Source: a bacterium (GTDB taxonomy: Bacteria; Myxococcota_A; UBA9160; SZUA-336). Taken from it: 64,000 nt of DNA. The DNA lies in assembly GCA_024226335.1 (NCBI GenBank), contig JAAELY010000259.1, positions 1-64,000 on the forward strand, read 5' to 3'. The first letter of the stretch is position 1, and the number at the start of each line of letters is the position of its first letter. The notes under the pieces are model-generated. The model searched no databases. It was given only the letters and a program-made list of their open reading frames with translations, and was not told the origin of the DNA. Below are positions 1,336 through 60,676 of this stretch, one piece after another. The translations under genes were made by a program, and so were the position numbers.

Positions 1336-1364
1336 CAGGCTATGAGAACCGCCTCGGTGTGTCA
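1336..1364 (-). promoter_or_regulatory. Sigma70-type promoter of the HAD gene
   Basis: On the minus strand there is a perfect TTGACA -35, a 17-nt spacer and a TAGCCT -10. Eight nucleotides then separate the -10 from the ATG at 1328, with no Shine-Dalgarno. Transcription would start at or next to the start codon. The -35 overlaps the candidate -35 (GTGTCA) of the divergent FAD reductase gene, so polymerases may compete for this 66-bp gap. Confidence 0.6.
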
Positions 1365-1380
1365 AAAGCTGAAGCTGCGG

Positions 1381-1386
1381 TAGAAT
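1381..1386 (+). promoter_or_regulatory. -10 hexamer TAGAAT directly before the FAD reductase start
   Basis: TAGAAT sits 8 nt before the ATG at 1395, and a GTGTCA -35 candidate lies at 1359-1364 (16-nt spacer). There is no Shine-Dalgarno between hexamer and ATG. This argues for ATG 1395 over the in-frame GTG at 1359, which would lie inside the -35. Confidence 0.5.
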
Positions 1387-1394
1387 CGGCCTCG

Positions 1395-2669
1395 ATGGCT
1401 GAAGACAGAGTTTTCGCAGTGGCGATCGTCGGGGGTGCTACGGCAGGGGCCGAAGCAGCCGATATCTTCGCCGGTCACGGCATTCTCACGGTGGTGTTCG
1501 AACAGAACCCGCGCCCGTACGGGAAAGTCGAAGACGGACTGCCCAGATGGCACGTTGGATTGCGACGCAAGGAATACGATTCCATCGACCGCAAACTGAA
1601 CCAGGAAGATATCCGCTTCGTACCGTTGACGGCATTGAGCCGCGACGTGTCGCTTCCCGAACTCGCCAATGAATGGGGTTTTCACGCGGTCGTGCTGGCT
1701 CACGGTGCCTGGCGCGACCGCCCGTTGCCGATTGAAGGGGCAGACGAGTTCGTCCGCAAAGGCCTCGTCTATCAGAACCCGTTCATCCTGTGGTTCAACC
1801 ACCGCCACGAGAAAAACTTCGCGGGTGAGGTTTTCGAAGCCTTGAACGACACGATCGTGGTCGGCGGTGGATTGGCCTCGATCGACGTGGCCAAGGCCTT
1901 GAACCTGGAACTCACGCTCGCCGCGCTACGCGAACGCGGCATCGAAGAAGACCTGGTAGAACTCGAAGTGAAGGGCATTCCCAGGGTCCTGGAAAGCCAC
2001 GACCTGACATGGAAGGAGCTGGGCATCCAGCCCGCCACGATCTTCTATCGCAGACGCCCCGAAGACATGCCCTTGGTGAACATGCCGGACGGAGCCGATG
2101 ACAAGATGCGCGAGAAGATCGAGAAGAGTCGCGCGCGCGTCCTCGCCAAGTCACAGGAAAAGTACCTGTTCGAGATTGAGCCCTTGCGCGCACCCGTCGA
2201 TCTGATCGTCGAGAACGAACGGCTCACCGGACTCGTATTCGCAAGGACCCGACTCGAGGCAGGCCGTGTCTTGATCAGCGACGAAACCGTCGAGGTGCGC
2301 GGTTCGCAGATCATCAGTTCCATCGGCAGTATTCCGGAAGAGATCGCGGACATTCCCATGAAGGGTGAGCTCTACGCGTACGAGGACTGGGACCTCGGTC
2401 GCCTGCCCGGATTCCCCACGGTCTTCTCCGCCGGCAACGTCGTGACGGGCAAGGGGAATATCGTCGACTCTCGCAAGCACGCGCGACGGATCGGCACCCA
2501 TGTCAGCGAGCAATACCTTCGCATCGCCGACGAAGTGAAGAAGCTGAAGCCCTTGGCCGAAGCCGAGCGAAACAGCCTGCTAGCGCGCGTGCGCGAACGG
2601 CAGGAAAAGATCGGTTACAAGGACTACACCAGTTGGATCGAAGCTTCCTGCCCACCGGAATTCATCTAG
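1395..2669 (+). CDS. FAD/NAD(P)-dependent oxidoreductase
   Basis: 424 aa from ATG 1395. It has two Rossmann dinucleotide sites: an N-terminal FAD site (AIVGGATAGAEAA, residues about 10-22) and an NAD(P) site near residue 155 (VVGGGLASIDVAKA). A C-terminal FSAGNVVTGKGN segment resembles the FAD-closing motif of adrenodoxin reductase and GltD-like flavoproteins. No CxxC disulfide pair is seen, so it is not a classical disulfide reductase. It probably moves electrons between NAD(P)H and a ferredoxin-like partner; the partner is not in the window. It converges on prlC, with stop codons 12 bp apart. Confidence 0.75.
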   Translation: MAEDRVFAVAIVGGATAGAEAADIFAGHGILTVVFEQNPRPYGKVEDGLPRWHVGLRRKEYDSIDRKLNQEDIRFVPLTALSRDVSLPELANEWGFHAVVLAHGAWRDRPLPIEGADEFVRKGLVYQNPFILWFNHRHEKNFAGEVFEALNDTIVVGGGLASIDVAKALNLELTLAALRERGIEEDLVELEVKGIPRVLESHDLTWKELGIQPATIFYRRRPEDMPLVNMPDGADDKMREKIEKSRARVLAKSQEKYLFEIEPLRAPVDLIVENERLTGLVFARTRLEAGRVLISDETVEVRGSQIISSIGSIPEEIADIPMKGELYAYEDWDLGRLPGFPTVFSAGNVVTGKGNIVDSRKHARRIGTHVSEQYLRIADEVKKLKPLAEAERNSLLARVRERQEKIGYKDYTSWIEASCPPEFI

Positions 2670-7819: not shown

Positions 7820-7826
7820 GAGCTTT

Positions 7827-7836
7827 ATGGTATAAG
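7827..7836. promoter_or_regulatory. Overlapping divergent -10 elements in a 26-bp gap
   Basis: TATAAG (7831-7836, plus strand) lies 9 nt before ATG 7846. On the minus strand TACCAT (7832-7827) lies 7 nt before ATG 7819. The two hexamers overlap by two bases. No room exists for two ribosome-binding leaders, so both genes probably start leaderless or use promoters inside each other's coding sequence. The -35 matches are weak. Confidence 0.45.
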
Positions 7837-7845
7837 AAGCCGCCT

Positions 7846-18947: not shown

Positions 18948-19075
18948 AGCCCGCGAAATTTCGTAATACCCTTTATTATCAAATAGATAGTCACCGAGTT
19001 GCACTCTGCTAAGTGCTTGCGGGTCGCGTCTGTTGCCTGTTGGGTTTTCCCATCGCATCGCCGATAGGCTCCAAC

Positions 19076-24498: not shown

Positions 24499-24504
24499 AT
24501 TATA
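24499..24504 (-). promoter_or_regulatory. Perfect TATAAT directly before lspA
   Basis: TATAAT on the minus strand (24504-24499) is followed by 9 nt and the TTG start of lspA, with no Shine-Dalgarno. It sits in the 21-bp gap after the GST gene. The -35 would fall in the last codons of GST and matches poorly. Confidence 0.45.
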
Positions 24505-27758: not shown

Positions 27759-27764
27759 TATTCT
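27759..27764 (+). promoter_or_regulatory. -10 hexamer TATTCT directly before the amidohydrolase start
   Basis: TATTCT ends 6 nt before GTG 27771, with no Shine-Dalgarno. This supports GTG 27771 rather than the in-frame GTG at 27756, which would overlap the hexamer. The -35 is poor. Confidence 0.4.
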
Positions 27765-32098: not shown

Positions 32099-32104
32099 AT
32101 TCTA
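32099..32104 (-). promoter_or_regulatory. -10 hexamer TAGAAT directly before the GT2 gene
   Basis: TAGAAT on the minus strand, then 7 nt, then ATG 32091; no Shine-Dalgarno. It selects this ATG over the upstream GTG-type start that would place the hexamer inside the coding region. Confidence 0.45.
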
Positions 32105-32139: not shown

Positions 32140-32145
32140 TATACT
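32140..32145 (+). promoter_or_regulatory. -10 hexamer TATACT directly before the amidotransferase gene
   Basis: TATACT (five of six consensus), then 7 nt, then TTG 32153; no Shine-Dalgarno. It is the divergent partner of the TAGAAT before the GT2 gene. Confidence 0.45.
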
Positions 32146-56991: not shown

Positions 56992-56997
56992 ATTCTA
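56992..56997 (-). promoter_or_regulatory. -10 hexamer TAGAAT directly before the CoA-transferase gene
   Basis: TAGAAT on the minus strand, then CTACGCG (7 nt), then ATG 56984. TTGAAA on the same strand (57022-57017) lies 19 nt further upstream and is a fair -35. No Shine-Dalgarno is present. Confidence 0.5.
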
Positions 56998-58122: not shown

Positions 58123-58199
58123 TGGCGCGCCCAGCACGACTCGAACGTGCGACCTTCAGGTCCGCAACCTGACGCTCTATCCATCTGAGCTATGGGCGC
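58123..58199 (-). tRNA. tRNA-Arg (anticodon GCG)
   Basis: 77-nt cloverleaf with encoded CCA. Acceptor GCGCCCA pairs with TGGGCGC, discriminator G. Anticodon stem TCAGG/CCTGA encloses the loop TTGCGGA, giving anticodon GCG (codons CGC, CGU). T-arm GCACG-TTCGAGT-CGTGC. Most bacteria use ACG (inosine) for this codon box. Confidence 0.95.
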
Positions 58200-58284
58200 G
58201 CGAGAAGAAATCCCGTCGATCCGGAAGCTGCTTGGTCCGTATGACGAAAACACCCTTTCCGACGGGGCGGCCAGGGTAGCAAAA

Positions 58285-58374
58285 TGGCGGAGAGAGTGGG
58301 ATTCGAACCCACGGTACGCGTAAACGCACACACGGTTTCCAACCGTGCGCCTTCAGCCACTCGGCCATCTCTCC
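58285..58374 (-). tRNA. tRNA-Ser (anticodon GGA)
   Basis: 90-nt class II tRNA with long variable arm and encoded CCA. Acceptor GGAGAGA pairs with the TCTCTCC side. Anticodon loop TTGGAAA gives GGA, reading UCC and UCU. T-loop TTCGAAT. It lies between tRNA-Ser GCT and tRNA-Arg on the same strand. Confidence 0.96.
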
Positions 58375-58432
58375 AACTCGTTACGAACGATGCCGATCCG
58401 GCCCAGTCCAGTAAGACCCCCGGTCATCGCAC

Positions 58433-58524
<92 letters not shown>

Positions 58525-58589
58525 AGATGCCCGAAAGATGCCCGCGACCGGGCCCCAATACAAGGGGGACCCACCTCCAGGAGAGCGGG

Positions 58590-60676
<2,087 letters not shown>

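Follow-up and report, generated by a model that had tools for sequence, protein, structure and literature searches.

How is translation begun at the divergent pair of genes near the left end of the window (the whole stretch of 64,000 nucleotides analysed here), where a HAD phosphatase and an FAD reductase each have a -10-like hexamer only 8 nt before the start codon, and how far does this arrangement extend over the genome? A sequence-only reading had named eight such hexamers in the window and had proposed that leaderless initiation is used as a rule for the first genes of transcripts. All eight were found in the sequence at the gaps given for them, and the gene names attached to them are consistent with Pfam (Table 1). 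The hexamer of lspA is present, but the gene is not plainly the first of its transcript, as had been claimed, because the end of a GST gene on the same strand lies 21 nt ahead of it. Similarly, the hexamer before the GspE-type (T2SSE) ATPase gene exists, but the start codon from which its gap is counted is weaker than supposed; an upstream GTG at 19013 is preferred both by the coding-only call and by the mixture model described below.

Table 1. Promoter-like elements before start codons in the window, with the posterior of a leaderless-type start from the mixture model.
Element	Position	Strand	Placement	Gene	Posterior	Remark
TAGAAT (-10)	1381..1386	+	8 nt before ATG 1395	FAD reductase (Pyr_redox_2)	0.83	
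TAGCCT (-10)	1337..1342	-	8 nt before ATG 1328	HAD phosphatase	0.82	
TTGACA (-35)	1360..1365	-	17 nt from the -10	HAD phosphatase		
TACCAT (-10)	7827..7832	-	7 nt before ATG 7819		0.97	not among the eight named earlier
TAGGCT (hexamer)	19065..19070	+	5 nt before ATG 19076	T2SSE/MshEN ATPase		start uncertain; weakest of the eight
TATAAT (-10)	24499..24504	-	9 nt before TTG 24489	lspA (signal peptidase II)	0.89	
TATTCT (-10)	27759..27764	+	6 nt before GTG 27771	amidohydrolase	0.99	
TAGAAT (-10)	32099..32104	-	7 nt before ATG 32091	family 2 glycosyltransferase	0.97	
TATACT (-10)	32140..32145	+	7 nt before TTG 32153	glutamine amidotransferase-like (Peptidase_C26)	0.98	
TAGAAT (-10)	56992..56997	-	7 nt before ATG 56984	CoA-transferase family III	0.93	

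The TACCAT site lies between two divergent starts, 7819 (minus strand) and 7846 (plus strand), that are separated by a spacer of only 26 bp (7820-7845). The opposite strand of this site reads TTATGGTATAA before ATG 7846, and the resulting near-palindrome, TTATGGTATAA/TTATACCATAA, could serve as overlapping -10 elements for both strands. Farther along the window, positions 58123-60676 hold four minus-strand tRNA genes (Arg-GCG, Ser-GGA, Ser-GCT and Ser-TGA). A long minus-strand ORF (58590-60353) lies between the last two of them and reads GTSYCAPVVAG just upstream of 59105, a string that we take to resemble the subtilase active-site motif.

The window comes from contig C259 of assembly GCA_024226335.1, which comprises 5.75 Mb (5,753,568 bases) in 556 contigs and is 97.4% complete and 3.7% contaminated. 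The RpoB of this genome is at most 72% identical to named records, and the nearest are metagenome assemblies (Myxococcales bacterium B22T1B5 and Deltaproteobacteria bacterium OFTM73 and OFTM280). The genome sample consisted of 965,471 bases, namely the window and sampled stretches taken largely from long contigs, in which a purpose-written small gene caller found 858 genes; 380 first, 165 intermediate and 296 internal genes were scored, and 11 edge genes were left out. A gene was called first when it was divergent from its neighbour or when 100 nt or more separated it from a neighbour on the same strand. An earlier sample of 568 kb contained 223 first and 181 internal genes. All start codons were computed, most genes offering several plausible ones; in the coding-only version, the start was picked by coding signal and codon type alone.

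The sequence-only reading had predicted a -10 peak upstream of first genes that would exceed shuffled sequence, and both the peak and the excess were found. With coding-only starts over the 965,471 bases, TANNNT occurs at gaps of 6-8 nt before the 380 first genes at 36 sites, compared with an expectation of 8.0 derived from gaps 14-40; there are 14 sites at gap 6 and 15 at gap 7, versus 0-6 at each gap from 11 to 44. In the 568-kb sample, TANNNT stands 5-9 nt before 28 of the 223 first genes, whereas 200 dinucleotide shuffles gave 5.3 ± 2.1 (maximum 11). The sharp contrast drawn earlier between first genes with a -10 hexamer and operon-internal genes with a Shine-Dalgarno (SD) site holds in part: first genes are richer in the -10, but the difference is one of degree, since the 296 internal genes also have 11 TANNNT sites at gaps 6-8 (2.9 expected), and core SD words in the 568-kb sample precede 80 of 223 first genes as well as 88 of 181 internal genes.

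The frequency of such starts was estimated with a three-way mixture model (SD, -10-type or neither) that allowed flexible starts and learned a GGAG-type and a TAnnnT matrix. The -10-type share was about 29.5% for the 380 first genes, 24.7% for the 165 intermediate genes and 7.8% for the 296 internal genes; the bootstrap range of the first-gene share (25.8-32.9%) resamples posteriors only and is hence too narrow. When the learned matrices were kept constant, the -10-type share of first genes in six shuffled runs was 0-7.9%, and confident first-gene calls (posterior >0.8) numbered 66 in the real sequence versus 0-1 in the shuffled ones. Free EM on shuffled sequence yielded large "TA" shares made up of other motifs (nCGAnn and the like) and not of TANNNT; such shares are meaningless, and therefore the fixed-matrix null alone was used. 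The figure of 29.5% depends on a learned matrix that is degenerate and on start codons that were free to vary, and the strict motif with coding-only starts gives an excess of about 28 sites per 380 first genes (7%). We regard 7% as the floor of the leaderless share of first genes and 25-30% as its best estimate. The mixture model assigns the 23 first genes of the window to the -10 type in 10 cases and to the SD type in 13, although the posterior is as low as 0.60 and 0.70 for two of the ten and another (15504) is without TANNNT. So leaderless initiation "as a rule", as first proposed, is rejected, because the majority of first genes appear SD-led.

The reading that we prefer, with a probability of roughly 85%, is that sigma-70-type -10 elements are set for leaderless mRNAs at about a quarter of the first-of-transcript genes, with SD initiation at most other genes and at internal genes above all. 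Ordinary -10 elements of this kind would cause transcription to begin at the start codon or within 1-2 bases of it, the resulting mRNAs would be without a 5' untranslated region, and ribosomes would recognise the 5'-terminal AUG or GUG together with the initiator tRNA. The transcription starts and the translation step are proposed on the strength of promoter geometry and of studies of other bacteria. Promoters with a start slightly further up might instead produce mRNAs with short leaders (about 5-15 nt) that are not truly leaderless, and part of the signal, at gaps 8-10, would suit them. However, the learned gap shares (6, 0.28; 7, 0.27; 8, 0.13; 9, 0.10; 10, 0.13) have their mode at 6-7, so that transcription would be expected to begin exactly at the first nucleotide of the start codon, and a 5-mer SD was found before none of the 66 confident leaderless first genes but before 105 of the 207 SD-type first genes, a difference that is partly by construction because the model gives each gene one signal. 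Short leaders are thus an unlikely explanation of the pattern. For leaderless initiation alongside SD initiation, the canonical 16S tail GGATCACCTCCTTT is present in 6 of the 39 genomes searched, including G008 of the same family (the 16S gene of the study genome itself is truncated at a contig end), which fits an intact SD system beside the leaderless mode.

The hexamers are also retained in related genomes. For four genes of the window, 77 orthologues (self excluded) gave 34 TANNNT matches over gaps 6-9, or 8.5 per gap, versus 1.0 per gap (single maximum 5) at decoy gaps 14-45 in the same orthologues. The FAD reductase has a correctly placed TANNNT at 13 of 30 loci, and at 8 of 11 same-family loci (including self) it lies 6-9 nt before the start. 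After loci below 40% identity (below 50% for the CoA-transferase) were dropped, and with self included, TANNNT was kept in 11 of 20 orthologues of the HAD phosphatase, several of which also have TTTGACA upstream, in 8 of 11 of the CoA-transferase, and in 6 of 20 of the family 2 glycosyltransferase, for which the signal is mostly missing. Where the start codon is shifted in the protein alignment, as in the HAD orthologues L216, L219, L220 and L230, the hexamer shifts along with it. In the same-family FAD reductase orthologues L108 and L111, TAGAAT lies about 30 nt upstream and a GGGGA-type SD is found between hexamer and start, an apparent switch between leaderless and SD-led initiation as judged from the upstream regions; more distant HAD orthologues have AGGAG. 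The divergent HAD phosphatase/FAD reductase pair itself (591-2669) is conserved in at least four genomes of the same family (G001:C237, G002:C203, G007:C98 and G010:C39).

Control genomes were processed alike, using the matrices learned from the study genome. The small control samples are rough, because shuffled first-gene shares rose to 0.107 (G003), 0.166 (G019), 0.213 (Thermus) and 0.334 (Oryzomonas), and the -10-type shares of first genes to be read with this in mind were 0.469 in the positive control, Thermus pTT27 (study genome, about 0.296), 0.272 and 0.181 in G019 and G037 of the same class, 0.217 and 0.210 in G010 and G003 of the same family, 0.095 with a diffuse gap distribution in E. 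coli, and 0.000 in both Oryzomonas (Geobacteraceae) and the delta MAG bin40. Sorangium gave 0.239 on 34 first genes with no strict-motif match, and is uninformative because too few genes (53 in 140 kb) were called and there was no strict-motif peak. Another possibility is that the pattern stems mostly from how start codons were chosen, together with AT-rich hexamers that arise by chance in GC-rich sequence; the computed starts, and the several plausible starts of most genes, give some room for this. However, the peak persists with coding-only starts and is missing at other spacings, the hexamer is kept in orthologues, and under the same processing E. coli, Oryzomonas and bin40 show no gap peak. 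Chance hexamers are in the main ruled out by the shuffles and decoy spacings, and an artefact of this type is very improbable.

The sequence farther upstream bears on the promoter character of the hexamers. At 7 of 74 confident sites (gaps 6-8), at least five of the six bases of TTGACA are matched at a spacer of 16-18, compared with 0.6 expected after shuffling, although at the majority of sites the -35 is weak (three or fewer bases matched in 61 of 74). A TTGACA-like peak with an unchanged offset also occurs ahead of first genes labelled as SD-type (spacer 17 in 16 of 207), and the division into leaderless and SD classes is therefore blurred; this peak suggests that some SD-labelled first genes are in fact leaderless but have a degenerate -10, in which case the leaderless share could be higher than estimated. 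That TANNNT acts in translation, as an A/U-rich element for ribosomal protein S1 or one that lowers structure, is the least credible explanation, for although S1 binding is offered by Nakagawa et al. 2017 (PMC5397173) as an alternative reading of AT-rich upstream bias, the excess of TTGACA-like sequence 16-18 nt further up, the stronger enrichment at first than at internal genes and the sharp spacing of the hexamer all fit a promoter. Support for leaderless initiation at many of the first genes comes from the spacing peak, the higher frequency at first than at internal genes, the -35 excess, the orthologues and both controls. The position, enrichment, context, -35 excess and orthologue conservation of the hexamers are direct observations.

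Leaderless-type starts are frequent where two genes diverge from a short spacer, as in the pairs 1328/1395 and 32091/32153, whose starts are 66 and 61 bp apart. In divergent pairs less than 120 bp apart they were assigned to 45 of 88 genes, and in wider pairs to 33 of 156 (p 2e-6); with coding-only starts the counts were 29 of 84 and 11 of 162 (p 7e-8; 3 and 6 at a decoy spacing), and in four relatives pooled they were 12 of 44 and 10 of 144. Wrongly called downstream starts would mimic such an enrichment, so that start choice confounds the comparison. Among genes with one plausible start, a small sample, the effect was not significant (3 of 12 versus 1 of 15, p 0.29); a start-robust version of the test, in which only six genes were surely short, did not reproduce it, and it was not seen in Thermus (3 of 16 versus 6 of 26). 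It is a tentative and rather doubtful idea, then, that leaderless promoters in this class are favoured at very short divergent spacers, since two promoters could interleave within 50-120 bp if their -10 elements lay close against the start codons. If it were true, genome compaction, and not ancestry alone, would help to maintain leaderless initiation.

The arrangement resembles that of the TA-led genes of Zheng et al. 2011 (PMC3160421), in which a TANNNT some 12 bp upstream of the start codon is read as a sign of leaderless genes. As TA-led genes require, the leaderless-type starts of the study genome lie mainly at single or first-of-operon genes. According to that survey, such genes are predicted in 207 of 953 bacterial genomes, among them 8 of 33 deltaproteobacterial genomes with an average of 15.8% of genes (5.7-20.6); the posteriors summed here correspond to 175.7 of 841 genes (21%), which is about the top of this range, by a different method. 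Because leaderless genes had already been predicted in deltaproteobacteria by these authors, leaderless use in the study genome is a known mode and not a new one, and its extension to a new lineage is a sound prediction. In Mycobacterium tuberculosis, too, a TANNNT -10 occurs with SD genes alongside, and about one in four genes that have a primary TSS are reported as leaderless (Cortes et al. 2013, PMC3898074). However, those starts were TSS-mapped and are described as having no -35 motif, whereas the present ones are predicted and show a weak -35 excess. In Deinococcus-Thermus (PMC12340547, 2025), a -10 near the start codon is likewise said to give leaderless mRNA, for about 30% of ORFs on average; unlike here, the arrangement was reporter-tested there, and the Thermus plasmid exceeds the study genome in our processing (0.469 versus about 0.296). 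In the literature on leaderless genes in Myxococcus, Sorangium and Geobacter we could not find any transcription-start study of this class, which does not prove that there is none.

For this uncultured class, the consequence is that gene finders that expect an SD will misplace many starts, and that many promoters should be readable straight from the genome sequence. The apparent leaderless/SD switches among close relatives, in the FAD reductase and the HAD phosphatase, offer natural pairs in which the conversion of one mode of initiation into the other can be studied.
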